Shown: positions 5,847 to 30,663 of the stretch, piece by piece
Position numbering within the stretch: the first letter of the stretch is position 1
Layout of the letters: each line of letters starts with the position of its first letter
Assembly: GCF_003050785.1 (NCBI RefSeq)
Contig: NZ_QAOH01000024.1
Location: 1-34,505 of the forward strand
Length of the DNA stretch: 34,505 nucleotides
Direction of reading: 5' to 3'
Origin: Celeribacter persicus
Lineage (GTDB): Bacteria > Pseudomonadota > Alphaproteobacteria > Rhodobacterales > Rhodobacteraceae
Position numbers and translations under genes: made by a program
The notes under the pieces: model-generated
The model's database searches: none
What the model was told of the DNA's origin: nothing
The model's input: only the letters and a program-made list of their open reading frames with translations

Positions 5847-6095
5847 ATGATCACCGCCCGACAATCACGGGCCGCGCGGGCGCTTCTTGGCTGGACACAG
5901 GAGCAGCTGGCGGATGAGGCCCGGGTATCTTTGACCGCGCTCAAGCGCCTCGAGTCCGAAAGCGGGCTCGAGGTCTATGAGACCACGCGCGATCAGGTCC
6001 GACGGGCTTTCGAGGCGAATGGCATTCTGCTCCTGAACTCCGACCAGGGGATAGGAGTGATGCATGTTCAGGCGAAGGCTGCCTCGAAGGCCTGA
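5847..6095 (+). CDS. XRE-family HTH repressor (small)
   Basis: An 82-residue protein, with the HTH at residues ~7-32 (ARALLGWTQEQLADEARVS followed by ALKRLE). ATG 5847 was chosen because GGGAGGTGATC sits just before it; a TTG at 5817 would extend the frame without adding domain. Almost the whole protein is the DNA-binding domain plus a short dimerisation tail, as in controller-type repressors. The upstream palindrome over the -10 box suggests autoregulation. It directly precedes DUF2285 genes, an arrangement reminiscent of the HTH regulator QseC next to QseM in Mesorhizobium ICEs, though there the genes are divergent. Equivalence to QseC is inference. Confidence 0.75.
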   Translation: MITARQSRAARALLGWTQEQLADEARVSLTALKRLESESGLEVYETTRDQVRRAFEANGILLLNSDQGIGVMHVQAKAASKA

Positions 6096-6188: not shown

Positions 6189-6464
6189 GTGGGGATGCGC
6201 GTGACGATCAGCAGCTTGCAGGATGTACCGCCGCAGGGGGACGTGGTGACTGAGTATGACCGTCATCACATGGCGCAGTATATGCGTTTGCTCGATGCTG
6301 CAGGCGAGGGCGCGAGCTGGCAGGAGGCCGCGCAGATCATTCTAGGTCTCGATGCGCAGACAGAGCCAGAGCGGGTGCGTCTGGTCCATGACGCACATCT
6401 TGAACGCGCGCGTTGGTTGAGCTCGGAAGGGTATCGGCAGTTGGCGGCGGGGCGAACCGCCTGA
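6189..6464 (+). CDS. DUF2285 protein, QseM-like antiactivator candidate
   Basis: A 91-residue protein (GTG at 6189; ATG at 6195 also possible). Residues ~24-88, from YDRHHMAQYMRLLDA to RWLSSEGYRQLAAG, resemble stand-alone DUF2285 proteins. In the Mesorhizobium symbiosis ICE, the DUF2285 protein QseM binds and inhibits the excision activator FseA and the quorum-sensing activator TraR. The present gene lies 106 nt upstream of an FseA-like split gene, which supports an antiactivator role. A perfect 11-bp hairpin follows its stop. The DUF2285 call is fairly sure; QseM-like function is inference, and no TraR/TraI homologue is seen in this window. Confidence 0.65.
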   Translation: MGMRVTISSLQDVPPQGDVVTEYDRHHMAQYMRLLDAAGEGASWQEAAQIILGLDAQTEPERVRLVHDAHLERARWLSSEGYRQLAAGRTA

Positions 6465-6466
6465 GG

Positions 6467-6491
6467 AGGTGATGCGTGCCACGCATCACCT
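6467..6491 (+). terminator. Perfect 11-bp hairpin between the two DUF2285 genes
   Basis: AGGTGATGCGT (6467-6477) pairs perfectly with ACGCATCACCT (6481-6491) around the triloop GCC. It begins 3 nt after the stop of the QseM-like gene. There is no T-tract, so it could act as a terminator, an mRNA boundary, or a palindromic binding site controlling the FseA-like gene. Confidence 0.5.
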
Positions 6492-6570
6492 GATGCCTTG
6501 GGGCGGGCTTCCCAAGTGATTGATCTCTTGGAATCCTTTCTTGTGATCAACCCAGGGGAGAGGCGATGCC

Positions 6571-7345
6571 ATGCAACCTGATCGCTCGAATTGGCGTGAC
6601 CAGGCCGCCTACGACTATCTTGATGATCTGGCTGCGCCGGACCTCGGCTGGGAATGCCTGCGCCGCAATCCCGAATATCAGCATGACTACGCGAAGCTCG
6701 CAGGAGAACCCCCGGAGAGGGTTGATCTGATGGATCAGGTCGGCCGTCGATGGGGGTTGTGCTTTCCCGATCCGGCCCGGGCTGCCCGCCTCCGTTGCGG
6801 AGGTGTTCTGGTGTCCGGCGGTCGATACAGGTGTCGTGGTGCTCGTTGCCGCCCCCGAGGCACTGGCCGAAGAGTCAGACGCCCCCGGTAGTGAAATAGT
6901 CGCCCCGACGGGCAGGGCGTCCCCCATTGGCAAGCACCTGCGCCACAGGCTGCCGGACGGGACATACCTGCATCTCGTCGCTCCCCTGAAAGACCGTGGT
7001 CGGCTTGTCGCCACCGTTCCTCTCGGCCTCGAGGGTCTCGATCGCATCGAAGCAATCCAGCGGCTCCTGGCGGATCAGCATCGACGTCGATCCATCCCCC
7101 GCGACACCCGCCTGACCGCGCAGCAGAAAGCGCGCCTGCGGCGTGTCCTTCAAGCCTCCGACGCAGCCTTCCATGGCGCGACCCAGAAGCAGATCGCCGA
7201 GGTCTTGTTCCGTACCGGTCACCTGGACCGCGATGAATGGCAGGTGTCCTCGGCCCGTTTTGCCGTCTCCAGCCTCCTTCGCGAGGGACGTGACCTGATC
7301 GCAGGCGGCTATCGCAAGCTCCTGCGTCACCAGCGCCGCCTTTAG
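6571..7345 (+). CDS. FseA-like DUF6499/DUF2285 activator, two frames joined by +1 shift
   Basis: Frame 1 (6571-6891) starts at ATG after GGGGAGAGG and encodes a DUF6499 segment, NWRDQAAYDYLDDL to LRRNPEYQHDY (residues ~6-40), then DQVGRRWGLCFPDPARAA, after which the frame becomes basic nonsense. Frame +1 is open from 6731 to 7345 and carries the continuation (VFWCPAVDTGVVVLVAAP) and a C-terminal DUF2285 domain from RLTAQQKARLRR to IAGGYRKLLR. Joining them with one +1 slip gives exactly 258 codons including the stop (775 nt minus 1). The slip must lie between 6731 and about 6800, most likely in the C/G-rich run around 6765-6790. This is the layout of fseA in the Mesorhizobium symbiosis ICE, made by programmed +1 frameshifting, where FseA activates the excisionase gene. 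A simple inactivating frameshift is the alternative. Confidence 0.7.
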
Positions 7346-7482
7346 GTCGGGGATCCCGCGCCGCGGTGTGCGGATTTACCCCTGCCAACTCCCCACTGCA
7401 TCTGACCGGACGCGCTTCGCCATCGTGACCGTCATCAGCCGCTGTTTCGCGGCACTGGTCACACACAGTAGGGAGACGCCCG

Positions 7483-7764
7483 ATGTCCGCCATCTCAACC
7501 GAACTTCCCCCGCGCTATCTGCGCACCAAGGAAGCCGCCCAGTTCCTGAGCCTGTCGGCTCGGACGCTGGAGAAGCACCGGACCTATGGCACCGGTCCCG
7601 CCTACCACAAGCTGGGCGGACGCGTGGTCTATGCGATCGAGGACCTGCAGGCCTGGGTCGGACGCGGCGCTGTCACCTCGACTTCCGACCCGCGCGGGCA
7701 GGTGCTGCCAGCGAAACGCCACACGCTCCCCAACCTCCCGCAGCCCGGCCGCTTCGTGCGCTGA
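7483..7764 (+). CDS. AlpA/MerR-type HTH protein (possible excisionase or regulator)
   Basis: A 93-residue protein with a winged-HTH of the HTH_17/excisionase type: RYLRTKEAAQFLSLSARTLEKHR (residues 11-33, quoted in part only as motif positions) and a wing ending VYAIEDLQAWV (residues ~49-59). ATG 7483 follows TAGGGAGACGCCC. It sits 18 nt before repA and downstream of the FseA-like gene. In FseA-controlled ICEs the activated target is the recombination directionality factor RdfS, a protein of this same small HTH class, so this is a candidate. It could equally regulate repA. A GCCGC/GCGGC inverted repeat lies in the upstream gap at about 7439-7454. Confidence 0.7.
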   Translation: MSAISTELPPRYLRTKEAAQFLSLSARTLEKHRTYGTGPAYHKLGGRVVYAIEDLQAWVGRGAVTSTSDPRGQVLPAKRHTLPNLPQPGRFVR

Positions 7765-7782: not shown

Positions 7783-8958
7783 ATGACTGATGGACGCAGA
7801 CCCCGTTCCGAGCGTGGACAGCTCGATCTGTTCCGCGCGCTGCCCGGGGATTTCGCCCCAAGAGATGCGCAAGACCTCATGGCCTATCCCTTTTTCTCCC
7901 TCGCCAAATCCAAACGGGTCGCACCGATCGACTTTGCCGCTGGTAGCGTCAGCATCCGGGTCGAGGCGGTTCCCGATCACGGTATGGCCACAATCTGGGA
8001 TGCCGACATCCTGATCTGGGCGGCGAGCCAGATCGTCGAGGCGCGTGACGCGGGGCTGCGCACCTCCCGGCTGATGGCCGCCACCCCTTACGAGATCCTC
8101 ACCTATGTCGGTCGCGGAACCGGTGCGCGGGACTATCAGCGCCTGAAGGCGGCGTTGGATCGTCTCCAGTCGACGACGATCTCCACCTCGATCCGGCAGC
8201 CGGCGGAAGGACGTCGCCATCGCTTCTCCTGGATCAACGAATGGCAGGAGCGCAGCGACAGGGAGGGGCGCCCGGACGGCATCGAGTTGATCGTGCCCGA
8301 CTGGTTCTACCAGGCCGTGCTCGACAATGCACTCATCCTCACCATTGATCGGGCGTATTTCGACCTGACTGGCGGGCTCGACCGTTGGCTCTATCGCCTG
8401 GTGCGCAAGCATGGTGGCAGGCAACGTGAAGGTTGGCGTTTCGACTTCCATCATCTTCACCAGAAGTCCGGGGCGCTGTCCCCCTTCAAGCGCTTCGCCT
8501 TCGAGCTTCGCGACATCATCCGGCGGCAGCCGCTGCCGGGTTATACGCTCTTTCTCGAGACAGAGGTTGGTGGCCGCAAGCTGCTGGCTTTCGAGCCTGC
8601 TCCGGGCTGTGGAAAACCTGTGAATGGGCTCGTGCTATCGGGAACCCGGGCTATCGTGCTATCAGGAACCGAAGGCTCGTGCTATCAGGAACCCAAACAG
8701 GGGGTAACGCACGGAAGCAAAAGCGGAAATCGCCCCCTTAACTTAGAGTCTAACAAAGAGTCTAACTTTGAAGAGCGCGCGCGTGATGTGGAAAACCTCA
8801 TCCGTGCCACCGCAAAGAGCCTCAGCCAGGCCGGTAAGACGAAGGCAGCCGTCGCCCCATCGGTGCCGCGAACGGCTTCCGATCAGGGTGTCGCAGCAGC
8901 CTCCGATCATCCAGATACGCCCCGCCTTCCTCTCGAATTGCCGGGAGGTGGCGAATGA
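7783..8958 (+). CDS. repA: Replication initiator protein A
   Basis: A 391-residue protein of the replication initiator protein A family common on alphaproteobacterial plasmids and ICEs. The N-terminal ~270 residues form the conserved initiator region, including MAYPFFSLAKSKR (~29-41), the WDADILIWAASQI segment (~74-86) and DRWLYRLVRKHGGR (~203-216). The C-terminal ~110 residues are low in conservation and encode the repeated LSGT peptide because the DNA there carries three iteron-like repeats (8631-8694). It is expected to bind an origin and open it for replication, giving the element autonomous or transient replication. The ATG follows GGGGGTGA. Its stop overlaps parA by ATGA, so replication and partition genes are co-expressed. 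Confidence 0.85.
   Translation: MTDGRRPRSERGQLDLFRALPGDFAPRDAQDLMAYPFFSLAKSKRVAPIDFAAGSVSIRVEAVPDHGMATIWDADILIWAASQIVEARDAGLRTSRLMAATPYEILTYVGRGTGARDYQRLKAALDRLQSTTISTSIRQPAEGRRHRFSWINEWQERSDREGRPDGIELIVPDWFYQAVLDNALILTIDRAYFDLTGGLDRWLYRLVRKHGGRQREGWRFDFHHLHQKSGALSPFKRFAFELRDIIRRQPLPGYTLFLETEVGGRKLLAFEPAPGCGKPVNGLVLSGTRAIVLSGTEGSCYQEPKQGVTHGSKSGNRPLNLESNKESNFEERARDVENLIRATAKSLSQAGKTKAAVAPSVPRTASDQGVAAASDHPDTPRLPLELPGGGE
8608..8616 (+). promoter_or_regulatory. DnaA-box-like 9-mer beside the repA iterons
   Basis: TGTGGAAAA differs from the reverse-complement DnaA box TGTGGATAA at one position. It lies 14 nt before the first iteron-like repeat inside repA, a typical arrangement for an iteron origin. 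One mismatch in a 9-mer is weak evidence on its own. Confidence 0.35.
8631..8694 (+). repeat. Three iteron-like direct repeats inside repA (candidate oriV)
   Basis: CGTGCTATCRGGAACC occurs at 8631-8646, 8655-8670 and 8678-8693, start-to-start spacings of 24 and 23 bp, close to two helical turns. Copies 2 and 3 are identical and copy 1 differs by one base. An AT-richer segment with a doubled AGAGTCTAAC follows near 8744-8766. The layout resembles an iteron replication origin placed in the initiator gene. Confidence 0.7.
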
Positions 8959-9608
8959 TCGTCGCTCTGCTCAATCAGAAGGGTGGCGTCGGCAAGACGA
9001 CGCTGGCGCTCCATATTGCTGGCGAATTGGCGATACAGGGCAAGCGCGTCACCCTGATCGATGCCGACCCGCAAGGCTCCGCCCTGGACTGGTCGCAGCA
9101 ACGCGCCCGCGAAGGTCTGCCGCGGCTCTTCGGCACCCTCGGCCTGGCCCGTGACACCCTGCACCGCGAAGTCCCCGAACTTGCCCGCACAGTCGATCAT
9201 GTCGTTATTGATGGCCCACCGCGTGTTGCGGGGCTCATGCGCTCAGCGCTGCTCACCGCCGATCTGGTGCTGATCCCGGTACAGCCCTCGCCATTCGATG
9301 GCTGGGCCTCTGCCGAGATGCTGTCCCTCCTTGGGGAGGCCCGCATTTATCGGCCGGAACTTGTCGCCCGCTTCCTGCTCAACCGCTGCGGCGCGCGCAC
9401 CGTTATCGCCCGGGACACCGCCGAGGCGCTGGCGGATCACAATCCTCCTGTGCTTGCCAGCACGATTGGTCAGCGCGTCGTCTTTGCAGATGCGGCGCAA
9501 ACCGGTCGCCTCGCCAGTGACATCGACCGTCAATCGCCTGCTGCCCGAGAGATCGCGGCGCTGACGTCTGAGATCGGGCGCCTCGGTCTTGGGAAGGTGG
9601 CGGTATGA
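8955..9608 (+). CDS. parA: ParA-type partition ATPase
   Basis: A 217-residue ParA/MinD-type P-loop ATPase. The deviant Walker A motif KGGVGKTT occupies residues 9-16 (LNQKGGVGKTTLA), the ADPQGSALDW segment (36-45) and VVIDGPP near 78-84 are the A' and Walker B regions. Its size is that of the short ParA form without an N-terminal HTH, as found on small plasmids and ICEs, where it segregates or stabilises the element with a centromere-binding partner. The ATG overlaps the repA stop and follows GGGAGGTGG; its own stop overlaps the RHH gene next, the likely partner. Confidence 0.88.
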   Translation: MIVALLNQKGGVGKTTLALHIAGELAIQGKRVTLIDADPQGSALDWSQQRAREGLPRLFGTLGLARDTLHREVPELARTVDHVVIDGPPRVAGLMRSALLTADLVLIPVQPSPFDGWASAEMLSLLGEARIYRPELVARFLLNRCGARTVIARDTAEALADHNPPVLASTIGQRVVFADAAQTGRLASDIDRQSPAAREIAALTSEIGRLGLGKVAV

Positions 9609-9859
9609 CCGGGCGCAATGACAAGCGTGGTTTCGCCGCGCGGCCAGTCGATGCCGAGACCTGGATCAAGGCTGGCGAGGCGCCATCCGCACACGGTCGC
9701 GCGGCGGCGATCTATACGGCCCGGCTTACCATCGACATCACCCCGGACCTGCGCGGTCGCATCAAGGTCGCAGCTTTCAGCCGAGGCGTCACTGTCGCTG
9801 ACATGCTGCGCGAGTTGCTCGGGCGCGAATATCCGAAACCCGAAGGAGAACCTCAATGA
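9605..9859 (+). CDS. Small RHH-type partition protein (ParB-like partner)
   Basis: An 84-residue protein, ATGA-coupled to parA. The C-terminal half (residues ~40-75: YTARLTIDITPDLRGRIKV then AFSRGVTVADMLRELLGREY) fits a ribbon-helix-helix fold: a beta strand, a helix and the second helix with the conserved VTVADMLRELL. The N-terminal half is basic and probably disordered. Short RHH proteins next to short ParA proteins are usually centromere-binding partners that also repress their operon. It is not a classical ParB with HTH and CTPase domains. The role is inferred from position and fold. Confidence 0.65.
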   Translation: MTGRNDKRGFAARPVDAETWIKAGEAPSAHGRAAAIYTARLTIDITPDLRGRIKVAAFSRGVTVADMLRELLGREYPKPEGEPQ

Positions 9860-10377
9860 CCGGCTTTGTGATCCCCGGCGTGACCGGAGACGGATCGTTC
9901 GACGCCCATTCCGGCGGCGAGCTGACGCGCGTGGAACTGACCTGGGTGGAGAAGCGGATCGAGTTCTGGATCAGGTTCGGCCAGGAGGCCGGAACGCAGA
10001 TCCTCGACCGCAGCCGCCGCATCGTCTTCTTCCGTCCCGGCGCCGTGTTTGGCTTCGTCCGCTGGGCGGCGAATGACTATGGAACCGTCGTCTCGCGCAT
10101 CGACATCGTGCGCTCAATCGCGCCTGGGAGCGCCTGTCAGACGCTGCCCTTCGTGCGCCCCGGTGGCGAGATTTTGTTGAAGATCGAAGGCTGGCCCAAG
10201 GTCGAAGAGGTCCTGCGCCATGTCGATGCTATCGAGGGTCTCGGGATCGACCCTGCCGAGGTCGATCCCGACCACTGGCGCCATGTCGCCCACTGGATGA
10301 AGGCGGGCGAAGCGCCGCGCGCCTATACGGCGGAACGCCATGCCGCATGGCTCCGGCGCCGGGAGATCGGAAAATGA
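9856..10377 (+). CDS. DUF2840 family protein
   Basis: A 173-residue protein, ATGA-coupled to the RHH gene before it and overlapping the TraF gene after it. It matches DUF2840, seen almost only between parA and traF in conjugative elements of this type. Features include LTWVEKRIEFWIRFG (near residues 28-42), RIVFFRPGAVFGFVRWAANDYGT (split across 55-77) and a C-terminal AHWMKAGEAPRAY near 148-160. No catalytic residues, membrane segment or signal peptide is evident. Conserved linkage suggests a role in conjugation or element maintenance, but the function is unknown. Confidence 0.8.
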   Translation: MTGFVIPGVTGDGSFDAHSGGELTRVELTWVEKRIEFWIRFGQEAGTQILDRSRRIVFFRPGAVFGFVRWAANDYGTVVSRIDIVRSIAPGSACQTLPFVRPGGEILLKIEGWPKVEEVLRHVDAIEGLGIDPAEVDPDHWRHVAHWMKAGEAPRAYTAERHAAWLRRREIGK

Positions 10378-10916
10378 CCCGTGCCCGCTACATCAGGGCG
10401 ACGGTCGCGGCGCTCACCACCGTCATCGCCGGCAGCATTCCGGCTGCGCCACGGCTGGTCTGGAACGCCTCGGCCAGCGTGCCGATTGGTTTCTACACCA
10501 TCGCTCCGGTGGACCGGCTCGCGGTGCCAGATCTGGTCGCGGTCATGCCACCCGAACCCTTTGCAGGCTTCATGGTCGCGCGCGGCTATGTCGGTCGCGA
10601 TGTGCCGATCCTGAAGCACGTCATCGGGCTGCCGGGACAACGGGTCTGCCGTGACGGCGCCGCGATCACCGTCGATGGCAGACACCTGGGGGAGGCGCGA
10701 GAGCGCGACAGCCAGGGCCGCGATCTTCCCGTCTGGCAGGGCTGCCGCACCATCGTAGAGGGCGAGGTCTTCCTGATGAATCCGGCGGTCTCTGACAGCT
10801 TCGATGGCCGCTACTTCGGTCCGTTCCCCACCTCGGCAGTGATCGGCCGGGCCAGTCCACTGTTCACCGACGAGGGTGGCGATGGCCGCCTCGTCTGGCA
10901 CGCGCCGGATGGGTGA
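10374..10916 (+). CDS. traF: TraF-type S26 signal peptidase
   Basis: A 180-residue S26-family serine peptidase of the TraF/LepB type. The start is ATG 10374, ATGA-coupled to DUF2840; an earlier ATG at 10347 would overlap more. The N-terminus has one membrane segment (residues ~8-26). The catalytic serine is Ser35 in ASVPIGFY and the catalytic lysine is Lys81 in ILKHVIGLPG, followed by the GQRV substrate-pocket strand and a late VFLMNPAVSDSFDGRYFG segment. In RP4-type systems TraF processes and cyclises the pilin TrbC at the periplasmic face of the inner membrane. No trbC is present in this window, so its substrate must lie elsewhere if it is active. Confidence 0.85.
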   Translation: MTRARYIRATVAALTTVIAGSIPAAPRLVWNASASVPIGFYTIAPVDRLAVPDLVAVMPPEPFAGFMVARGYVGRDVPILKHVIGLPGQRVCRDGAAITVDGRHLGEARERDSQGRDLPVWQGCRTIVEGEVFLMNPAVSDSFDGRYFGPFPTSAVIGRASPLFTDEGGDGRLVWHAPDG

Positions 10917-10982
10917 CGGCGCGTCCATCGCGGGCGCGCAAGCGACCCGCCTCCCATTCACCGCATGAGGAAGGAGCCTCCA

Positions 10983-11318
10983 ATGCCACAGATCGGTCAA
11001 TTCACACGCACCCCATCCGGCTATTCCGGACAGCTTCGCACGCTCTCGCTCGACCTGGAACTGACCTTTGTTCCCACCGACAATGTCGATTCCGAGAAAG
11101 CTCCCGCTTATCGCATCCACCTCGGTGACGAGGAGGGTCCGGAGGTTGGCGCGGGCTGGAAACACATAGGCGAAACCGCAGGCGAGTTCGTTTCGGTCCT
11201 GCTCGATGATCCGGTTTTCCGGCATCCGATCCGCGCCCGCCTGTTCCAGTCGGATGAGGAGGGCAGGGCGTGGGGGCTGCACTGGACACGCCCGAAGAAG
11301 CACGATGAGCAGGACTGA
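10983..11318 (+). CDS. DUF736 family protein (copy 2)
   Basis: A 111-residue DUF736 protein beginning MPQIGQFTRTPSGYSG, with the conserved core EVGAGWKHIG near residues 57-66 and LHWTRPKK near 99-106. It starts after AGGAAGGAGCCTCCA, a strong ribosome-binding site, 66 nt after the TraF stop. It is only moderately similar to the copy at 5329-5652, so the two are long-diverged paralogues or separate acquisitions. In related elements this gene commonly lies between the TraF and lytic transglycosylase genes. The role is unknown. Confidence 0.85.
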   Translation: MPQIGQFTRTPSGYSGQLRTLSLDLELTFVPTDNVDSEKAPAYRIHLGDEEGPEVGAGWKHIGETAGEFVSVLLDDPVFRHPIRARLFQSDEEGRAWGLHWTRPKKHDEQD

Positions 11319-11320
11319 CC

Positions 11321-12085
11321 ATGATCATGTCCTGCACCCGTCCCGCCTCGGGGAGCGGTGGCATCTGCCACCGCATGCTCCTCCTTCTTCTTTCCGGCCT
11401 CCTCATCCCTGTCGTCGCCACCCAGCCGCTTATGGCGCAAACCGATGTGCCCGAACACGCAATCGCCGCGCATCCCTACGCCGCCCAGGTCACCGAGGCA
11501 TCGCAGCGCTTCGGCATTCCGACGACATGGATCATGGCCGTGATGCGGGCAGAGAGCGCGGGCGATCTGCGCGCGGTGTCTTCTGCTGGCGCGATGGGGC
11601 TGATGCAGGTCATGCCCGACACCTGGGCCGGGCTGCGCATCCGTCATGGCCTCGGCCATGATCCTTTCGAGCCGCGTGACAACATCCTCGCTGGCACGGC
11701 CTATCTGCGCGAGATGTGGGACCGCTATGGCAATGTCGCGGCGATGCTGGCGGCCTATAATGCCGGTCCCGCCCGCTACGACGAATACCGCTTGGCTGTT
11801 CGTCCTCTGCCCGCCGAGACACGCGCCTATGTCGCTGCGCTTGCGCCCGCTCTGCTTGGTGAGCGACCATCGGGCGGCACTGTTGCTGCAGCCCGGCCGC
11901 TCGATTGGCGTGAGGCGGCGATCTTCATCAGCCGCGACGACGGAACGTCTGCGACCGATCCTGTGTTGTCTCACCCGACGGTCGGCGCCGCCCCTTCACC
12001 CGTCCCGGCGGCGCAACAGGCGGGAATGGCCCCGCAGCCTGAGGGCCTCTTCGTCCGGCGGGAGACTGGTGAGGTCCGGCCATGA
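11321..12085 (+). CDS. Conjugation lytic transglycosylase (SLT domain)
   Basis: A 254-residue secreted transglycosylase starting 3 nt after the DUF736 stop. A signal peptide covers residues ~1-40 (hydrophobic core MLLLLLSGLLIPVVA, cleavage probably after LMAQ). The SLT domain spans ~52-175: catalytic Glu78 in MRAESAGD, then GAMGLMQVMPDTW near 90-102 and AAYNAGPARYDEY near 146-158, the standard three family blocks. It should open peptidoglycan locally in the periplasm so that the mating channel can be built, as VirB1 or TrbN do. The proline/alanine-rich C-terminus after ~185 may be a flexible tail. Confidence 0.87.
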   Translation: MIMSCTRPASGSGGICHRMLLLLLSGLLIPVVATQPLMAQTDVPEHAIAAHPYAAQVTEASQRFGIPTTWIMAVMRAESAGDLRAVSSAGAMGLMQVMPDTWAGLRIRHGLGHDPFEPRDNILAGTAYLREMWDRYGNVAAMLAAYNAGPARYDEYRLAVRPLPAETRAYVAALAPALLGERPSGGTVAAARPLDWREAAIFISRDDGTSATDPVLSHPTVGAAPSPVPAAQQAGMAPQPEGLFVRRETGEVRP

Positions 12086-12186
12086 CCCACGAGCTCACAC
12101 TTCGCGTTCCATCGTGCTCTGGCGTGCGTTTGAGGGGACGGCCGGTGGTGGCGGGCACCACGACCGAAGGATGGCAGGATAAAAGG

Positions 12187-12319
12187 GCGCACGGTGCGCG
12201 TCGGTTGGGCGGTTGTTTTTGTTCATGTTTTTACCGCGTTCCGCACCGTGTGGCGCGTGTTCGCACCGTGCGAGATGTGCCTAACACTCTGATCTTTTGC
12301 GTTGTTTCGCACTGTGCGG
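12187..12319. promoter_or_regulatory. Four copies of a CGCAC-N-GTGCG palindrome upstream of the relaxase
   Basis: Cores lie at 12188-12198 (CGCACGGTGCG), 12242-12252 (CGCACCGTGTG), 12262-12272 (CGCACCGTGCG) and 12308-12318 (CGCACTGTGCG). Three are perfect palindromes around the central base and one has a single change. The last ends 10 nt before the relaxase ATG. The segment is T-rich between sites and has no gene. Likely roles are a repressor operator array or binding sites in an oriT region. Confidence 0.7.
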
Positions 12320-12328
12320 GGATTTCTT

Positions 12329-14083
12329 ATGCCCGATGATCGCGAGTTCCGCATCCGCCCGGGGCGTATCCGTTCGACAAAGGCGCAGCAGGCCCGTTCC
12401 TTTGTCGCACAGGCCCTGGCTGCCGCGAAAAAGGCCGGTGGTGGTGTCTCGCGGGCCGGCCGCGTCAGCCCGGGCAATCGGTCCCGCTTCGGGCGCGGTC
12501 AGCGTGCCAGCATTCAGGCCAACCGCCTCATCACCGCCCGCACACGCGGCGCGGTGGTCAAGGCGCGTGTGGTCCGGCACAGTGGGAAACCCGCGCCTCT
12601 CGGAGCCCACCTCGATTACCTGCGCCGGGATGGTGTGACCCGGGACGGGGAGAAGGCCAGGCTCTTCGGGCCCGGAACGGAGGATGCCGATGGCCGGGCC
12701 TTTGCCGAGCGGTGTCGCGATGACCGTCATCATTTCCGGTTCATCGTCTCGCCCGACGACGCGCCGGACATGTCTGACCTGCAAACCTTTACCCGCGATC
12801 TCGTCGGGCGGATGGAACAGGATCTCGGCACGTCGCTTGACTGGGTCGGCGTCGATCACTGGAACACCGCCCATCCGCACGTCCATCTGATCGTTCGGGG
12901 TGTGCGCAACGACGGCCAGGATCTCGTAATCTCACGGGACTACATCAAGGAGGGGATGCGGGACAGGGCACGGGCTCTCGTCACCCAGGAACTGGGCCCG
13001 CGCAGCGATCTCGACATCCGCCGGACACTTGAACGCCAGTTCGGGGCGGAGCGTTGGACGCAGCTCGACCGTCAGTTGCTGCGGGACGCGGGGCGTTCGC
13101 GCATCCTCGACATGGCGCCGGATACGGATCGGCAGCCGGATGTGTTTCACGCGCTGAAGGTCGGGCGGTTGCGAAAGCTGGAAATCCTCGGCGTCGCCGA
13201 CCAGATCGGACAGTCGCAATGGCACATCAGGGACGATGCCGAAGTGGTCCTGCGCGAGATGGGGGAGCGTGGCGACATCATCAAGCGGATGCATCGTGCC
13301 CTGACGGACCGGGGGATCGAGCGCGGGTCCTCGAGTTACGTCCTTGCCGCGGAGAGCCTCGATGCTCCCGTCATCGGTCGTCTGGTCCAGCGGGGCCTCG
13401 ATGACGAGCTGAAGGGGACAGCCTATGCCGTCGTCGATGGTGTCGATGGCCGGAGCCACCATATCCGTCTGCCCCATCTCGACGCCGCCGGCGACAGTGC
13501 ACCAGGCTCGATCGTGGAACTCCGCACCTATGACGATGCGCGCGGCCAGCGTCGTGTCGCACTGGCGGTTCGGTCAGACCTGGACCTCGCTGCGCAGGTG
13601 ACCGCGCCCGGGGCGACCTGGCTCGACCGGCAGGCCATCGCGCGGGAACCGCTTGCGCTGTCGGACCAGGGCTTTGGTGCCGAGGTCCGGCAGGCTCTGG
13701 ACGCGCGCGCCGATCATCTGACCTCGGAGGGGCTGGCCGAGCAGCGGGGCGGCAGGGTCGTCTTTGCCCGGCGCCTGCTCGGAACCTTGCGCGACCGGGA
13801 GTTGCAGGCAGTTGGCGCGCAGCTCTCGGGAGAAACCGGGTTGCCGTTCGGCAAGGCGGGGGCGGGCGACTACGTCAGCGGCCTCTATCGCCAGCGTCTC
13901 GCACTCGCTTCGGGCCGCTTTGCCATGATCGAGGGCTATGGAGCTGACGGCGCGTTCGGCTTCCAACTCGTGCCCTGGTCCCCCTCCCTCGAAAAGCACC
14001 TCGGCCGGAATGTCGCCGGCGTCGCCCGCGGGGACGGCGGGGTCGATTGGGACTTCGGCCGCAAGCGCGGTCTTGGCCTCTGA
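12329..14083 (+). CDS. DUF3363 relaxase (VirD2-like)
   Basis: A 584-residue relaxase of the DUF3363/VirD2-like group found on alphaproteobacterial ICEs. ATG 12329 was preferred over an upstream TTG. Residues ~75-215 are the relaxase domain: HHFRFIVSP near 133-141, then the metal-binding three-histidine motif His182, His184 and His186 in AHPHVHLIVRG. Possible nucleophile tyrosines are in HLDYLRRDG near 93-101. The region after ~260 is the DUF3363 extension. It should nick oriT and lead the transferred strand to the coupling protein encoded next. The gene is preceded by the palindrome array at 12187-12319, a plausible site of autoregulation or oriT. Confidence 0.85.
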   Translation: MPDDREFRIRPGRIRSTKAQQARSFVAQALAAAKKAGGGVSRAGRVSPGNRSRFGRGQRASIQANRLITARTRGAVVKARVVRHSGKPAPLGAHLDYLRRDGVTRDGEKARLFGPGTEDADGRAFAERCRDDRHHFRFIVSPDDAPDMSDLQTFTRDLVGRMEQDLGTSLDWVGVDHWNTAHPHVHLIVRGVRNDGQDLVISRDYIKEGMRDRARALVTQELGPRSDLDIRRTLERQFGAERWTQLDRQLLRDAGRSRILDMAPDTDRQPDVFHALKVGRLRKLEILGVADQIGQSQWHIRDDAEVVLREMGERGDIIKRMHRALTDRGIERGSSSYVLAAESLDAPVIGRLVQRGLDDELKGTAYAVVDGVDGRSHHIRLPHLDAAGDSAPGSIVELRTYDDARGQRRVALAVRSDLDLAAQVTAPGATWLDRQAIAREPLALSDQGFGAEVRQALDARADHLTSEGLAEQRGGRVVFARRLLGTLRDRELQAVGAQLSGETGLPFGKAGAGDYVSGLYRQRLALASGRFAMIEGYGADGAFGFQLVPWSPSLEKHLGRNVAGVARGDGGVDWDFGRKRGLGL

Positions 14084-14110
14084 TCAAAACACAGGAAAGG
14101 AGCGACAGTC

Positions 14111-16096
14111 ATGTCCGCAACAAAAATCCTTTGGGGGCAGATCTCCATCGTCTTCCTCATCATTCTGGCCACCACCTGGGGCGCGACGCAATACGTGGCC
14201 GCGAGCCTCGGCTATCAGGCACAGCTGGGCCCGCCCTGGTTCGTGCTGTTCGGGACGCCCGTCTACTATCCTCCCGCCATCTTCTGGTGGTGGTATTTCT
14301 ATGAGGCCTACGCGCCACCGGTCTTTGCGACAGGTGGGATCATCGCCGCCTCGGGGGGCTTCATTGCTATCGGGGTGGCCATCGCTATGTCGGTCTGGCG
14401 CGCCCGCGAGGCCCGCAACGTCGCGACCTATGGATCTGCCCGATGGGCGGAGATGGGCGAGGTGAAGGCGGCCGGACTGCTTGACCCAGATGGTGTTGTC
14501 CTCGGTCGCTATGAGCGGCAATATCTGCGCCACGATGGGCCGGAGCATGTGCTCTGTTTTGCGCCGACACGATCCGGCAAGGGGGTAGGGCTCGTCGTGC
14601 CCTCGCTTCTCACTTGGCCCGGCTCGGCCATCGTTCATGACATCAAGGGCGAGAACTGGCAACTGACCGCCGGGTTCCGCGCTCTACACGGTCGGGTCCT
14701 GCTGTTCGATCCGACCAATCCGAACTCTTCGGCCTACAACCCCCTGCTGGAAGTCCGTCGTGGGGAGTGGGAGGTTCGCGATGTCCAGAACATCGCCGAC
14801 ATCCTCGTCGACCCCGAGGGGAGCCTGGAGAGGCGAAACCACTGGGAGAAGACCAGCCACAGCCTGCTCGTCGGGGCGATCCTGCATGTCCTTTATGCCG
14901 AGAAGGACAAGACGCTGGCCGGCGTCGCCAACTTCCTGTCCGACCCGCGGCGTCCCGTGGAGTCCACGCTCCGCGCGATGATGCGGACGCCGCACCTGGG
15001 CGAGGCGGGGCCGCATCCCGTGGTCGCCAGTGCCGCTCGCGAGTTGCTCAACAAGTCCGAGAATGAACGCTCGGGTGTGCTTTCGACGGCAATGTCTTTC
15101 CTTGGCCTCTATCGCGACCCTGTCGTCGCTCAGGTCACGCGCCGCTGCGACTGGCGGATCGGTGACATTGTCGGGGAAGTGCGTCCCGTCACGCTCTATC
15201 TCGTAGTGCCGCCATCTGACATCAATCGCACCAAGCCGCTCATCCGCCTGATCCTCAACCAGGTCGGCCGACGCCTGACCGAAGACCTGCAGGGCAAGGA
15301 TGATCGTCATCGGCTACTTCTGATGCTCGACGAGTTCCCGGCGCTCGGTCGCCTCGACTTCTTCGAGAGTGCGCTGGCCTTCATGGCGGGCTACGGGTTG
15401 AAGAGCTTCCTCATCGCCCAGTCGCTGAACCAGATCGAGAAGGCCTATGGTCCGAACAACTCGATCCTCGACAATTGCCACGTCCGGGTGAGTTTCGCGA
15501 CCAATGATGAGCGTACGGCCAAGCGGGTGTCCGACGCTCTCGGCACCGCCACCGAGATGAAGGCGATGAAGAACTATGCCGGGCATCGTCTGGCGCCCTG
15601 GCTCAGCCATCTCATGGTGTCCCGGTCGGAAACTGCGCGGGCGTTGCTCACCCCCGGAGAAATTATGCAGCTGCCGCCCTCAGACGAGATCGTCATGGTG
15701 GCTGGCACACCACCGATCCGGGCGACAAAAGCACGGTATTACGAAGATGCGCGGTTCACCGAGCGGGTCTTGCCGCCACCCGACTTAGTGGAAGTGGGCG
15801 TCTCGGGAGAGGATGACTGGAGCAGTCTGGCAGTCCCCACGCAAGAGGACGAGCCCGAGTGGCTTTCCGAGACAGCATCGGAGGACAACGATCCGACCGG
15901 CTCGGAGCGCCGTCTTCAGCCGGAGTTGGCGCAGCCTCAACCGGTCGACAGGCAGTCCCCCATTGAGAACGAGTTTGAATTCGACCCACCCGAGGATGAG
16001 GAGGATGGTGCCATCCGCAATCGCCGCATCATGCAGCAGATGCGCGGTGTCGCGCGGCAGGTCTCCCTCAATCCCGATGACGGCATGGAGCTTTGA
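14111..16096 (+). CDS. traG: TraG/VirD4-type coupling protein
   Basis: A 661-residue type IV coupling protein. Two N-terminal membrane segments occupy residues ~5-32 and ~72-95, anchoring it in the inner membrane. The Walker A motif APTRSGKGVG spans 151-160 with Lys157, and the Walker B LLLMLDEFPAL centres on Asp407-Glu408, followed by GYGLKSFLIAQSLNQI, the family's sensor helix. The acidic tail after ~560 (EDDWSSL to FDPPEDEEDG) is typical of substrate-recruiting C-termini. It should pump the relaxosome DNA into the mating channel. A GGAAAGGAG ribosome-binding site precedes the ATG. It is apparently intact. Confidence 0.9.
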   Translation: MSATKILWGQISIVFLIILATTWGATQYVAASLGYQAQLGPPWFVLFGTPVYYPPAIFWWWYFYEAYAPPVFATGGIIAASGGFIAIGVAIAMSVWRAREARNVATYGSARWAEMGEVKAAGLLDPDGVVLGRYERQYLRHDGPEHVLCFAPTRSGKGVGLVVPSLLTWPGSAIVHDIKGENWQLTAGFRALHGRVLLFDPTNPNSSAYNPLLEVRRGEWEVRDVQNIADILVDPEGSLERRNHWEKTSHSLLVGAILHVLYAEKDKTLAGVANFLSDPRRPVESTLRAMMRTPHLGEAGPHPVVASAARELLNKSENERSGVLSTAMSFLGLYRDPVVAQVTRRCDWRIGDIVGEVRPVTLYLVVPPSDINRTKPLIRLILNQVGRRLTEDLQGKDDRHRLLLMLDEFPALGRLDFFESALAFMAGYGLKSFLIAQSLNQIEKAYGPNNSILDNCHVRVSFATNDERTAKRVSDALGTATEMKAMKNYAGHRLAPWLSHLMVSRSETARALLTPGEIMQLPPSDEIVMVAGTPPIRATKARYYEDARFTERVLPPPDLVEVGVSGEDDWSSLAVPTQEDEPEWLSETASEDNDPTGSERRLQPELAQPQPVDRQSPIENEFEFDPPEDEEDGAIRNRRIMQQMRGVARQVSLNPDDGMEL

Positions 16097-16940: not shown

Positions 16941-17028
16941 AGATGGAGTGGTTGCCGCCCTCCCCAGACGGCATCGCAATGTGCCAAGGTCGTGGTGTTC
17001 AACGCCACGCGAAGAGGAGGACGGCGAG

Positions 17029-18057
17029 ATGAAGGAGATGATGATTGGGATCGATCTGACAAAGGCAGTTTTCCAGGTCCACGGTGCCCTTCGGACAGGG
17101 GAGGTCCGTTTCCGCAAGAAGCTCACGCGCAAGCAGTTGTCAGAGTTCATGGCACAGCAGGCGCCCAGTCTGGTCATCTTCGAAGCGTGCGGCAGCGCAC
17201 ATTATTGGGCGCGCGAGATGGAGGGGCTTGGGCACGAGGTGAAGCTGATCGCGCCGCAATATGTGCGCCCCTTCGTCAAGCGCCAGAAGAATGATGCTGC
17301 CGATGCCGAGGCGATCGTCATCGCAGCCCGTCAGCCTGAGATGAGTTTTGTAGAGCCCAAGACAGTTCAGCAGCAGTCCCGCGCGGCGGTTTTTCGTGGC
17401 CGCGAGCGTCTGGTACATCAGCGGACCGCTGACGTGAACGCGTTGCGGGCGCTCCTGTATGAGCACGGCTATGTATTCCCCGCCGGGATACGCCATCTCA
17501 ATCGCATAGCAGCGCTTGTGGAGGATGAAGCTTCAAAGTTGCCAGCGCTGATCCGGGAGGAGAGCCAGGACCTGCTGACGCAGATTTCAGAGAAAACGGC
17601 GCGTATCATCGAGCGCACCATGAAACTCAAGACGCTGGCCGCCGCTTCAGACAGGGTGCGCCGGCTTCAGAGCATGCCAGGTGTGGGGCCGCTGACGGCT
17701 ATTGCGGTAGAAGCGTTTGGCCCAGACATGGCACAGTTCAAAGCTGGGCGCGGCTTTGCGGCTTGGTTGGGCCTTGTTCCCAAGCAGCATTCCTCTGGAG
17801 GCAAGGAGCGTTTGGGGCGGATGACCAAGGCCGGTCAAGCCGACATCCGACGCCTCCTGATCATTGGGGCAATGTCACGACTGAGCTGGCTTGGGCAGCG
17901 TACCATTACGGAGGGGAGCTGGCTGTCACGGATGTTGGCGCGCAAACCCAAGATGCTGGTTGCGATTGCGCTGGCTAACAAGATGGCCCGCCAGATATGG
18001 GCGATGCTGACGAAGAACGAAGATTACAGGGATCCGGCGCTGGCAGGCGCGGCATGA
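17029..18057 (+). CDS. IS110/IS1111-type transposase
   Basis: A 342-residue transposase starting MKEMMIGIDL after GAAGAGGAGG. The N-terminal DEDD (RuvC-like) domain shows Asp9 in GIDLTKAVFQVHG, Glu in FEACGSAHYW near 51, and KNDAADAEAI near 97-106. The C-terminal transposase_20 domain carries LQSMPGVGPLTAIAVEAFG (about 214-232), GRGFAAWLGLVPKQHSSGGK and a helical end. Both domains are complete, so the element may be active. IS110-family recombinases use RNA-guided target choice through a bridge RNA from the element's own non-coding end. It inserted into the UPF0149 gene. Confidence 0.9.
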   Translation: MKEMMIGIDLTKAVFQVHGALRTGEVRFRKKLTRKQLSEFMAQQAPSLVIFEACGSAHYWAREMEGLGHEVKLIAPQYVRPFVKRQKNDAADAEAIVIAARQPEMSFVEPKTVQQQSRAAVFRGRERLVHQRTADVNALRALLYEHGYVFPAGIRHLNRIAALVEDEASKLPALIREESQDLLTQISEKTARIIERTMKLKTLAAASDRVRRLQSMPGVGPLTAIAVEAFGPDMAQFKAGRGFAAWLGLVPKQHSSGGKERLGRMTKAGQADIRRLLIIGAMSRLSWLGQRTITEGSWLSRMLARKPKMLVAIALANKMARQIWAMLTKNEDYRDPALAGAA

Positions 18058-18313
18058 TGCTCATGTCGAACTGCTAGCGACGGTGCCGAGGGGAGTGTGA
18101 GAAGACGGCGACCTGAATGGGCAAAACGATCGAACAGATCCGGATCGGGAAAACCAGTCGTTCTCTGCGAGCAGAAAGCTCGGCGATTAGATTTGGACCC
18201 GATCCGCTGATCACCATCCCGGCCCGCGGCTTTTGAGAATGCCGCATCATGAAGGCCTGACAAAAGTGCGCACTCGATCACACGCCAACAGGGTCACAAA
18301 CTTCTTGCATTAC
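18058..18313 (+). ncRNA. Candidate bridge-RNA region of the IS1111-type element
   Basis: This 256-nt non-coding stretch lies between the transposase stop and the right subterminal repeat. In the IS1111 group the bridge RNA is encoded at this end. The stretch has no gene on either strand. Target- and donor-binding loops were not folded, so the call rests on position only. Confidence 0.4.
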
Positions 18314-18329
18314 GGGCGGCAACCACAAA

Positions 18330-18449
18330 AGAGAAATGGCCGACCCCCGCGCCAACCTTGATACCGCCACTGTCGCGAAGGTAGCCAGGGCTGTCGCCGC
18401 CATCCGCGCGCACTTCATGCCGCGCAGGGCAGAGTCCTTCCGCAGATAG
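18330..18449 (+). pseudogene. UPF0149 gene, C-terminal fragment after IS
   Basis: Reading resumes as REMADPRANLDTATVAKV and ends in AIRAHFMPRRAESFRR with TAG at 18447-18449. The phase continues that of 16713-16940 when 16941-18329 is removed. The terminal helix and basic end are usual for UPF0149 proteins. Without the lost N-terminus the gene would remain defective even after precise excision. Confidence 0.6.
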
Positions 18450-18460
18450 CGACCCGCTCG

Positions 18461-18734
18461 TCAAGCATGGCCTACAACGACCAACTCGTGTCGTTCACGG
18501 TTCTTCAAGTACGGCTTGACGAACTTTGGCGCGATCAGGCACACCTCATGGCCGATCGCGGCCAGTGAAGGGCCGTGCACCGCAACAATGCATCCGGGAT
18601 GCATCAGCATGAACGCCAGGAACTGCTTTCGCGACAGTTTATTGCGAAACACGATCTCGCCGTCTGCTGTCGCTCCGTGCAGTTGGAAGACCTGTTTCGC
18701 CAAGTCAACGCCGATGATTAGAGACTTCCTTCAT
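18461..18734 (-). pseudogene. IS110-type transposase remnant
   Basis: On the minus strand the N-terminus of a second IS110 transposase is readable: an ATG at 18732-18734 after AGGAGGAAAAGGCT, then, one frame off, IIGVDLAKQVFQLHGA and FRNKLSRKQFLAFM, and later IGHEVCLIAPKFVKPYLKNR. One extra base separates the start codon from the GVDLAK block, the EACGSAHHW block is deleted, and the KNDAADAEAI block and everything beyond are missing. It is a dead fragment and is clearly different from the intact element 130 bp away. Confidence 0.75.
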
Positions 18735-18890
18735 AGCCTTTTCCTCCTGATCCTTCATGGATCATTCTGACACAAGTACCGTCAGGAAGGGCTACCTAAC
18801 CCATCATCAGAGCCGTGCGCCCCACTTCCTGTCATCAGTGCACTCAAGAAACCGAAGGTTCTTGGCGGGAGCGAAAACGCGGCAGGCAGC
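18735..18890. other. Spacer between IS remnant and phasin gene
   Basis: It includes the 5' untranslated end of the IS110 remnant (to about 18780) and the 3' flank of the phasin-like gene. No gene or clear terminator was seen. Confidence 0.35.
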
Positions 18891-19187
18891 TTAGGCCTTT
18901 TGGGGAACGGCTGTTTGTACCAGATGGTCAAAGCTCTTGCGTGCCATATCTTGCCAGTATTGCGCGAGCAGGGCGGCAGCGGTGAGCGGCGTGTCTGCCT
19001 TAGCAAGTTCGTGCAGCATTCTAGCGTTATCCTCGGCAACTGAGGCAAGAAGATCGCAGCCTTCGCGCCACGCCTCGGGAGAGGCCTGAGCGGAACGCGT
19101 CATCAAGTCAACGAATTGGGCCGGAAACGCAACTGCCGCGGCAGCTTGAAAGGGCGCGGTTTGAGCTGTGGTCGGTTTCGTTGTCAT
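18891..19187 (-). CDS. Phasin-like granule protein
   Basis: A 98-residue, alanine-rich, helical protein. Residues ~18-95 (AFPAQFVDLMTRSAQ, then CDLLASVAEDNARMLHEL and YWQDMARKSFDHLVQ) have the amphipathic repeats and the AQYWQD-like block of short phasins, which coat polyhydroxyalkanoate granules. There is no signal peptide or membrane segment. It is divergent from phaC with 137 bp between the start codons; AGGAAG precedes the ATG on the minus strand. The shared region carries an FNR-like palindrome, so both genes may be induced together. Short phasins diverge fast, so the family call rests on composition and context as well as on sequence. Confidence 0.65.
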   Translation of the reverse strand: MTTKPTTAQTAPFQAAAAVAFPAQFVDLMTRSAQASPEAWREGCDLLASVAEDNARMLHELAKADTPLTAAALLAQYWQDMARKSFDHLVQTAVPQKA

Positions 19188-19256
19188 TTTTAGACTTCCT
19201 TTGCGAAGGATTGGGACCGGAGGTTACCATCTGTGCCTGCATTCCTACTTCGTCCA

Positions 19257-19270
19257 TTGACATTAGTCAA
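19257..19270. promoter_or_regulatory. FNR/Anr-type binding site in the phasin-phaC divergent promoter
   Basis: TTGACATTAGTCAA is a perfect palindrome (TTGAC-N4-GTCAA), close to the FNR-family consensus TTGAT-N4-ATCAA. It is centred 61 bp before the phaC ATG and 76 bp before the phasin ATG, so it could activate either gene from a class II position depending on the transcription start. It suggests induction under low oxygen. Confidence 0.6.
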
Positions 19271-19324
19271 CGACCGATGATTAAGCTTCCGCAGGCTTAT
19301 TTTCAACGATTGAGGAACCCTCAT

Positions 19325-21148
19325 ATGGCGCAGGATTCGAAGAATTCCGACCCACGCAAGCCTTCGGAAGCAGGCGCCGACAACAAGTCCTTCATGCGGT
19401 CGATGCGAAGGCTACCTTCAACTCAGGGCGAGAGTGAGCCGCTGGGGATCGAGGCATTTCAGGCCTATGATAAAATGCGCGAGGCTCTCTCCGGCCAGTT
19501 TACCGGCGGCGCGTCGCCCGGCTCGGCGGCAATGGCTTATTTCGACTGGGCCTTCCATCTGGCCTCTGCGCCTGGCAAGCGAATGGAGTTGGCCGTCAAA
19601 GCCGATCGCAAATGGAAACGGCTTTCGGCGTGGCTCTGGTCGTCGACATTTGATCCGCAAACACCACCGGCGATCGAGCCCCTTCCTGGCGATAACCGCT
19701 TCTCCGACGAGGCCTGGAGCAAGCCACCATTCAGTTGGATGGCTCAGGCTTTCCTTCTTGAGCAACAATGGCTTCACAACGTCACGCATGAAGTGCCGGG
19801 CATGACGAAGCACCACGAAGAGGTCGGCTCATTCGCGGCGAAACAGATGCTGGACGTGTTCGCTCCGTCAAGCAATCCCTTCACCAATCCGGAAGTTATC
19901 GCTCGCACCTGGGCCACAGGTGGCATGAATTTTGTCAAAGGCTTCCAGAACCTCATGGAGGACCAAGCGCGCAAGATGACCGACCGCCCCGCAGTAGGGA
20001 CAGAGGCCTTCTTGCCTGGTGAGACTGTCGCAGTTTCGCCGGGTAACGTCGTGTACCGCAACCATCTGATCGAGTTGATCCAATACAGCCCGACAACCGA
20101 TAAAGTGCACCCCGAACCAGTTCTGGTCGTTCCTGCCTGGATCATGAAATACTATATTCTCGACCTCTCCCCAGAAAATTCGCTGATCCGCTGGCTGGTG
20201 GCGCAGGGCCATACCGTCTTTGCGATTTCTTGGCGAAATCCAGATGTCTCCGACCGTGATCTGGAAATGGAAGACTATCTTGAGCTTGGGGTCATGGCCG
20301 CATTATCAAAAATCAATACTCTGGTTCCAAAGACCAAAGTGCATGGCGTGGGCTATTGTCTCGGCGGTACGCTGCTCTCGATCGCGGCGGCAGCGATGGG
20401 TGGGCAGGCTGACGACCGGCTCAGCTCGGTCACGCTGCTTGCGGCGCAGGTGGATTTTACAGAGCCTGGAGAACTGGCTCTTTTTATCGACCCGAGCCAA
20501 CTGCATTTTTTGGACAGCATGATGTGGAACCGCGGCTACCTCTCGGCGGACCAAATGTCTGGAGCGTTCCAGCTATTGCGCTCGAACGATCTGGTCTGGT
20601 CGCGCATGGTACGTGAGTACATGATGGGCGAACGCACACCGATGAATGACCTGATGGCCTGGAACGCGGACAGCACGCGCATGCCATACCGGATGCACTC
20701 GGAATATCTTCGCAAACTCTACCTGAACAATGAACTCTCCTCGGGCCGCTTCATTGCGGATGGACAGACGGTCCTCTTGCAGAACATTCAGGTACCGCTC
20801 TTCGCTGTCGGCACCGAGCGCGATCACGTGGCGCCTTGGAAATCGGTCTACAAGATCCACCAGTTCACCGACTGCGAAGTGACTTTCACGCTTACTTCAG
20901 GCGGACACAACGCCGGGATCGTCAGCCCACCGGACCATCCGCGTCGCCATTATCGTTTGGGGACTCACAAACACGGCATACCGCTGCTGTCGGCTGAAGA
21001 CTGGCAGGCCAAACATGAGCAGGTGAAAGGATCGTGGTGGTTAGTCTGGCAAAAATGGCTGGCTGCACATTCGAGCGCGATGGCTGCCCCACCAGCCATG
21101 GGCACGGCGCTTGCCAAAGCTCCCGGCACTTATGTGTTCCAGAAGTGA
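19325..21148 (+). CDS. phaC: Class I polyhydroxyalkanoate synthase
   Basis: A 607-residue PHA synthase. ATG 19325 was chosen because TGAGGAA lies just before it and the length fits class I enzymes; upstream starts would overlap the promoter region. The N-terminal domain runs to ~200. The alpha/beta-hydrolase core has the lipase-like box GYCLGG with catalytic Cys345, Asp500 in TERDHVAPW and His528 in SGGHNAGIV. PVLVVPAWIMKYYILDLSP (266-284) is the usual oxyanion-side block. It polymerises (R)-3-hydroxyacyl-CoA on the granule surface. No phaA or phaB is nearby, so the monomer may come from the MaoC-type hydratase fused in the next gene. The next gene starts 5 nt downstream. Confidence 0.92.
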   Translation: MAQDSKNSDPRKPSEAGADNKSFMRSMRRLPSTQGESEPLGIEAFQAYDKMREALSGQFTGGASPGSAAMAYFDWAFHLASAPGKRMELAVKADRKWKRLSAWLWSSTFDPQTPPAIEPLPGDNRFSDEAWSKPPFSWMAQAFLLEQQWLHNVTHEVPGMTKHHEEVGSFAAKQMLDVFAPSSNPFTNPEVIARTWATGGMNFVKGFQNLMEDQARKMTDRPAVGTEAFLPGETVAVSPGNVVYRNHLIELIQYSPTTDKVHPEPVLVVPAWIMKYYILDLSPENSLIRWLVAQGHTVFAISWRNPDVSDRDLEMEDYLELGVMAALSKINTLVPKTKVHGVGYCLGGTLLSIAAAAMGGQADDRLSSVTLLAAQVDFTEPGELALFIDPSQLHFLDSMMWNRGYLSADQMSGAFQLLRSNDLVWSRMVREYMMGERTPMNDLMAWNADSTRMPYRMHSEYLRKLYLNNELSSGRFIADGQTVLLQNIQVPLFAVGTERDHVAPWKSVYKIHQFTDCEVTFTLTSGGHNAGIVSPPDHPRRHYRLGTHKHGIPLLSAEDWQAKHEQVKGSWWLVWQKWLAAHSSAMAAPPAMGTALAKAPGTYVFQK

Positions 21149-21153
21149 CCATC

Positions 21154-24487: not shown

Positions 24488-24708
24488 TATGGGCCGTCTT
24501 GGCAACACGAGAGGCAATTCGCTCAGCGAAGGTTCACGATAATCGTGGTGAAGCAGGGTTAACAGCTCGCAAATGCAAATCGTGCCGCAATGTGTTTGTC
24601 ACAAGGATCCTGATTCTGGCAAAAGCCCGGGCCAACGCCCGCAGGTAGCTGAACTTCGTGCCTGAAGAGCCGGCGACCGGTAGGAAGCCACGCTCCCACA
24701 ATACCATT
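24488..24708 (+). other. Intergenic, nothing recognised
   Basis: No gene is supported. It joins the fabI-like gene to the IS3 remnant and may contain further eroded transposon sequence. Confidence 0.35.
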
Positions 24709-24990: not shown

Positions 24991-25009
24991 AATCCGATGG
25001 TGCCCCTCC

Positions 25010-25607: not shown

Positions 25608-25632
25608 GTGCTCATTGCCCTCCCTAGCGGCG

Positions 25633-25652
25633 ATATCATCGACCGTTGACTT
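25633..25652. promoter_or_regulatory. Degenerate copy of the TetR operator before the efflux operon
   Basis: ATATCATCGACCGTTGACTT matches the 33031 operator at 14 of 20 positions and the 33942 operator at 14 of 20, counted by hand. The right arm TTGACTT is identical to that of 33031 and could be a -35 box for the operon on the plus strand. The left arm is eroded. A second inverted repeat, TTTGC/GCAAA at 25651-25672, overlaps it. Confidence 0.45.
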
Positions 25653-25731
25653 TGCAGTAATTGCTGCGCAAATAGACACAAAAGGCCATTTTGCCTAGCC
25701 TGAAATTTCTTCTCTTGCCCGGATCGCCGTC

Positions 25732-29540: not shown

Positions 29541-29547
29541 GGGCGGG

Positions 29548-30660: not shown

Positions 30661-30663
30661 GAC

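Follow-up and report, generated by a model that had tools for sequence, protein, structure and literature searches.

The regulatory switch that most resembles the locus described here is that of ICEMlSymR7A from Mesorhizobium japonicum R7A. Its activator FseA (msi172-msi171), consisting of a DUF6499 and a DUF2285 part, is a single frameshifted protein (PMC10359603), the stand-alone, acidic DUF2285 protein QseM is the antiactivator, and rdfS, traF and rlxS belong to the transfer genes; the same features are seen or predicted in the locus under study. Antiactivators of the QseM family are expected to bind the DUF6499 domain of FseA, and TraR as well, and to block activation. The +1 shift codon of FseA, UUU, is the fourth codon past a conserved Trp, which is itself followed by Gly (PMC5009743), and both a UGGGGG stretch at the slip site and a charge contrast between QseM and FseA have been pointed out (PMC10359603). 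In R7A, TraR controls fseA, which lies after traI2, and for the inferred ancestral ICE a divergent arrangement of qseC and qseM is described (PMC5882170). In contrast, the genes for an XRE-type regulator, QseM, FseA and RdfS are arranged in tandem in the window, i.e. the stretch of 34,505 nucleotides from Celeribacter persicus (contig NZ_QAOH01000024.1) analysed here, and this contig has no LuxR- or LuxI-type match. ICEAc of Azorhizobium caulinodans (rihR/rihF2/rihF1b/rihF1a) likewise combines an XRE gene with a two-part FseA-like gene, and traR is stated to be absent (PMC9601964). This module, apparently similar to that of the window, is needed for transfer, RihR is reported to regulate intC and not rihF1, and deletion of rihF2 had no effect on transfer (PMC9601964). 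From the locus numbers we infer that RihF2 is QseM-like and that the gene order of ICEAc agrees with that of the window. The two differ in that programmed frameshifting is stated to be absent from ICEAc, where the module lies beside intC (PMC9601964), while the window has a clear +1 site and no integrase among its 37 scanned ORFs.

On the basis of gene identities, a conserved +1 split, a conserved slip codon and selection on both frames, we consider it very probable that the locus is the regulatory module of a conjugative element of the ICEMlSymR7A-like family, whether ICE or plasmid, in which slippage at UUU C makes the activator and a QseM-like protein blocks it. The module is a further example of the well-described FseA/QseM switch family and no new type of system. 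The published set of 4709 FseA homologues, of which about 61% have a +1 site (PMC10359603), may include loci of the present clade; a search of the literature on DUF2285, DUF6499, FseA and QseM found none on this clade by title or opening of the abstract.

The open frames listed in the initial annotation (6189–6464, 6571–6891 and a frame open from 6731 to 7345, all on the forward strand, as are all features below) were recovered at these positions. All three gave Pfam matches, in agreement with a stand-alone DUF2285 gene followed by a split DUF6499/DUF2285 gene. The first encodes a QseM-like putative antiactivator, with possible starts at ATG 6195 (6195–6464, 89 residues) and GTG 6189 (91 residues). 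Its only Pfam domain is PF10074 (DUF2285, now RovC_DNA-bd; E 2.9e-6), with no DUF6499, and its best match among solved structures (phmmer against PDB) is 7uqt, the 'Quorum sensing master protein' (E 5.4e-20). The second ORF matches PF20109 (DUF6499; E 2.5e-23) and contains the sequence GWECLRRN, which in the alignment corresponds to the AWEFLRRN-like motif expected of the N-terminus of the FseA family; the third matches PF10074 with an E-value of 1.1e-28. The proposed likeness to QseM and FseA is thus upheld by the 7uqt match of the small protein and by the presence of PF20109 and PF10074 in the split gene, and this identity of the module is supported by homologues, which also bear out the natural DUF6499–DUF2285 order after joining. 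The QseM-like protein (91-residue form) has a net charge of –4 and the FseA-like protein one of +11 over its last 92 residues, which agrees with the published contrast. With a profile built from 11 read-through proteins, RovC (PDB 6xz5) was matched at 2.7e-13 in two stretches, best in the DUF2285 part, and 7uqt at only 0.13; unlike the ICE regulators, RovC is reported to activate a type VI secretion system (PMC10359603). No NCBIfam model matched QseM, either FseA part, RdfS or RepA at an E-value of 0.001.

The region 6571–7345 comprises 775 nt and, if TTTC is read as one step, encodes 257 residues with no stop, as had been calculated earlier. The slip, originally placed between 6731 and about 6800, could be narrowed to TTT at 6763–6765, with C6766 skipped. 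This divides the fseA-like gene into a frame-0 part of 65 residues (6571–6765), which includes DUF6499 and whose ORF continues to 6891, and a +1-frame part of 192 residues plus stop (6767–7345), consisting of a middle region and DUF2285. The putative slip site itself (TGG GGG TTG TGC TTT C CCG, 6751–6769, supported by a census of homologues) lies in the context CGA TGG GGG TTG TGC TTT CCC GAT, with the conserved Trp at 6751–6753. It follows the published pattern, UGGGGG and then TTT four codons after Trp.

Relatives of the tail were collected by a pattern-based scan of one genome per species (84,980 species), which yielded 27 loci. One of these (L026) begins inside the tail; exactly one extra base separates head and tail in all 26 others, namely the near-identical L002, 23 other close relatives (L003–L025) and two distant loci (L027, L028). 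The check that had been suggested, i.e. alignment of homologues to see whether the split is kept, therefore came out in its favour, as 23 of 23 close relatives retain it. DUF6499 was also searched for in samples of 149 genomes of the family (11 positive), 385 of the class (25 positive) and 398 of the phylum (43 positive). The tallies include the window's own genome, there is slight overlap between the samples, and no more than 30 loci were taken per sample search. Copies of the window's locus (L001, L002, L031) and loci that had not been collected for this gene (L045–L055) were left out and two plasmid loci were added, giving a census of 99 sequences with 102 DUF6499 matches. These are matches and not independent events, since near-identical and some decayed copies are included. 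DUF2285 followed in the +1 frame in 75 matches, in frame 0 in nine and in the +2 frame in two, and was not found in 16. Doubtful rows were kept among these, including both +2 matches (L042, L088), which look decayed, a tail-frame stop (L085), a stop in the head (L038), weak frame-0 matches (L078, L109) and extra low-scoring second matches in some loci.

TGGGG together with TTT at the fourth codon after Trp was present in 70 of the 75 +1 matches; TTT stood at this position in 73, adding L035 (TGG AGG), L069 and L083, which were read by eye. The exceptions are L073, with TTT one codon later, and L062, with TGT; in three more of the 75, T replaces C after TTT. The 71 +1 matches with a TGGGG site represent 57 distinct 33-mers, 53 of which have TTTC. 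Among the nine frame-0 matches, the seven with a readable Trp site (all except L078 and L109) have no TTT at this position. The comparison thus holds an internal control, the one-frame matches being without the slip codon that nearly all two-frame matches retain. The suggestion that codons near 6760–6795 would be conserved if the shift were programmed is borne out by the slip TTT, and these data support a +1 split that is conserved and looks programmed. As an alternative, a mutation or sequencing error in a formerly intact, single-frame fseA would account for the single-frame homologues (9 of 102 matches), but the +1 split at the same codon in all close relatives and in most matches of the class and phylum samples, the lack of TTT in the readable single-frame matches and selection on the tail frame make this explanation extremely improbable, and it was rejected on the conservation of the split.

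Selection on the two frames is apparent from the variable columns at codon positions 1/2/3 when the window is compared with 22 close relatives (L025 was omitted because of an indel). In frame 0 the head has 9/6/34. The 126 nt that directly follow the slip have 20/18/35 if taken in frame +1 but 34/20/18 in frame 0, and for the remaining tail the +1 frame gives 32/22/104. By this pattern the protein sequence is preserved through the junction, unlike the frame-0 extension. As a selected product in its own right this extension was rejected, as it has no third-position bias in frame 0 and its length past DUF6499 varies among the +1 matches from 3 to 97 codons (237–255 in L069, L083 and L100). In a second alternative, the DUF6499 ORF and a separate DUF2285 protein would form a two-part activator with no frameshifting. 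The first ATG, GTG or TTG of the tail frame, GTG 6803, indeed opens an ORF of 180 residues, and such an arrangement has been supposed for rihF1b/rihF1a of ICEAc, whose two parts are needed together and for which frameshifting is stated to be absent (PMC9601964). However, the tail frame is conserved upstream of 6803, including the invariant residues F65 and P69 in the alignment, the slip codon remains TTT even though TTC is the commoner Phe codon in these genes (TTT elsewhere 104/403, 25.8%), and FseA of R7A is one frameshifted protein (PMC10359603); we regard separate translation as highly unlikely.

We propose that a single activator is made by slippage, as follows. Slippage, DNA binding, antiactivation and the target operon are carried over to this locus from the published work on R7A. 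Ribosomes starting at 6571 would mostly enter the short, unselected frame-0 extension, and a minority would slip +1 at UUU C to produce the FseA-like activator of 257 residues. Judging solely from the codons, tRNA-Phe would re-pair from UUU to UUC, perhaps aided by the upstream UGG GGG stretch. By binding to an inverted repeat that follows the fseA-like gene, the activator would switch on both the rdfS-like gene and the transfer operon. The acidic QseM-like DUF2285 protein would block the activator via the activator's DUF6499 domain, and control is probably also exerted by the XRE protein. If a fusion product were confirmed, transfer control by +1 frameshifting would be proven experimentally outside the rhizobia as well.

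The DUF2285 gene and the split gene of the initial annotation stand as parts of the module, but an XRE-type HTH regulator of 82 residues (5847–6095; PF01381, E 6.4e-6, read from the longer start 5817) had been left out of it. This gene precedes the QseM gene in all 23 close relatives (L003–L025) and is a candidate QseC/RihR-like member of the module. In ten distant loci the XRE protein is 78–81% identical in local matches where QseM is 41–57% identical, and in seven other loci it is 46–70% identical; its evolution appears to be slower than that of the neighbouring genes. Directly 3' of the qseM stop, in the gap before fseA, lies a perfect palindrome of 25 nt (6467–6491) with arms of 12 bp and a spacer of 1 nt, AGGTGATGCGTG-C-CACGCATCACCT. 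The best inverted repeat upstream of fseA contains GATGC/GCATC in 31 of 65 distinct regions (22 close relatives and nine distant loci), and some repeats of distant loci are changed on both arms (GTGATGCG/CGCATCAC, GCGATGCC/GGCATCGC). The RNA of 6462–6500 is predicted to fold at –20.3 kcal/mol (z –4.3), and the palindrome may act as a hairpin, operator or terminator. It occurs once in the window, which gives no support to a role as a repeated operator.

Downstream of fseA, an RdfS-like HTH_17 gene of 93 residues (7483–7764; PF12728, E 8.6e-9) adjoins fseA in 23 of 23 close relatives and, by analogy, is likely to be the target of FseA. In the FseA family an FseA box of inverted hexamers 15–16 bp apart is expected before rdfS; a tentative one, TGCGGA-N15-TCCCCA, was located at 7369–7395, 23 nt after the fseA stop. 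Of 69 loci, 35 contain the motif, whose pattern was chosen after inspection of the sequences. Most of the 35 are close relatives, and with three exceptions the offset from the fseA stop is 20–24 nt; distant loci have a five-base match in other letters (GGGGA/TCCCC, GGCGA/TCGCC). Inverted repeats of at least 5/6 at offsets 18–29 were found in 15 of 64 loci and in 108 of 768 control windows (14%), a weak enrichment, and complementarity is 5/6 in the window and only 4/6 in most close relatives. The candidate ends 87 bases before the ATG of the rdfS-like gene (7396–7482 lie between), further from the start codon than the box of the published logo, whose near hexamer is 62–67 bases upstream (PMC10359603). 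As a site repeated through a regulon it was rejected, with five matches (at most three mismatches) against 5.6 expected, two of them being one place on both strands. The leader of the rdfS-like gene (7425–7483) can form a GCCGC-loop-GCGGC hairpin (fold z –1.6); similar hairpins with changed bases were seen by eye in L027, L029 and L041.

The rdfS-like gene is followed (7783–16096) by genes for RepA, ParA, an RHH protein, DUF2840, a TraF-type S26 peptidase, DUF736, an SLT transglycosylase, an RlxS-like relaxase and a TraG-type coupling protein, identified with Pfam and NCBIfam; the RlxS model scored 583 bits, below its cut-off of 850. The order XRE-QseM-FseA-RdfS-RepA is kept in 23 of 23 close relatives. 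In distant loci the module is incomplete or its genes are separated; many of these loci gave no XRE match, and in L028 the RdfS-like gene is about 2 kb beyond fseA. The view that the switch sits in a different backbone was not borne out. The repA/parA backbone is an ordinary one, since, apart from the ICESyms and one other ICE, all surveyed Mesorhizobium ICEs are reported to carry a replication initiator and DUF2840 between rdfS and traF, as do distant elements including Tn4371 (PMC8627217); RepA, ParA and DUF2840 in this position distinguish the window from the ICESyms. The gene order of the window is also that of plasmid pCHQ1 of Sphingobium indicum UT26S (NC_014007), with strawberry-notch, XRE, DUF2285, split fseA, HTH, RepA, ParA, DUF2840, S26, relaxase and TraG genes and a +1 site; pCHQ1 differs in its distant sequence and in its trb genes after TraG, none of which were found among the scanned ORFs of the window.

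Positions 1 to 34410 are 98.1% identical to an 85-kb contig (G138:C17) taken as Pseudodonghicola flavimaris IC7, and this match in another genus of the same family points to recent transfer of the element. The window seems to begin at the end of an inserted element, apparently within a strawberry-notch helicase gene; positions 1–94 match twice in the P. flavimaris contig (G138/G149 C17 48131–54319), with three tandem tyrosine-recombinase matches between the two copies. The inserted element presumably resembles a recombinase-in-trio element.

With respect to the input signal, the statement that no TraR or TraI is seen in the window is confirmed by profile searches, in which neither PF00765 (LuxI) nor PF03472 (LuxR) matched its contig; the 85-kb contig that carries the near-identical element had no PF03472 match either. 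The further suggestion that the input may differ is plausible in so far as no linked LuxR-type gene was found, but the host genome does have three PF00765 and three PF03472 matches, all outside the contigs of the window and of its second fseA copy. In 25 relatives, searched for the LuxR type only and with distances compared by hand, the contig of the best fseA match has no LuxR-type domain at a distance of up to 100 kb from it, which makes a TraR-independent input plausible; this linkage evidence is suggestive only, as some contigs are as short as about 7.9 kb. LuxR-type matches occur somewhere in 23 of the 25 genomes, the nearest on an fseA contig at about 124, 172 and 226 kb. As far as seen, the locus thus adds a compact version of the switch with no linked quorum-sensing regulator, and a group in which the input can be sought. 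A Rhodobacteraceae-centred clade might use the switch without quorum sensing, with the XRE protein and the palindrome setting the ratio of antiactivator to activator and entry occurring through an XRE switch and slippage. Transfer entry would then be independent of cell density, and ICEAc would be predicted to use a +1 site too, against its published description. We consider this unlikely, because in ICEAc RihR is reported to act on intC rather than on rihF1 and loss of rihF2 to be without effect (PMC9601964).

The same genome contains a second XRE/QseM/FseA/RdfS/RepA module (L041; G000:C4:312252-312431). It too is split by +1 at a TTT C site, and its DUF6499 part is about 40% identical to that of the window; cross-talk between the two antiactivators is possible. 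The remainder of the window (16948–33694) carries an IS110-type transposase, followed by cargo genes for a PhaC-type polymerase, a PTA/MaoC protein, acetate kinase, an enoyl-ACP reductase-like SDR, HlyD and ABC-2 exporter parts and a DUF900 hydrolase, as well as a DDE transposase and a TetR-type regulator.
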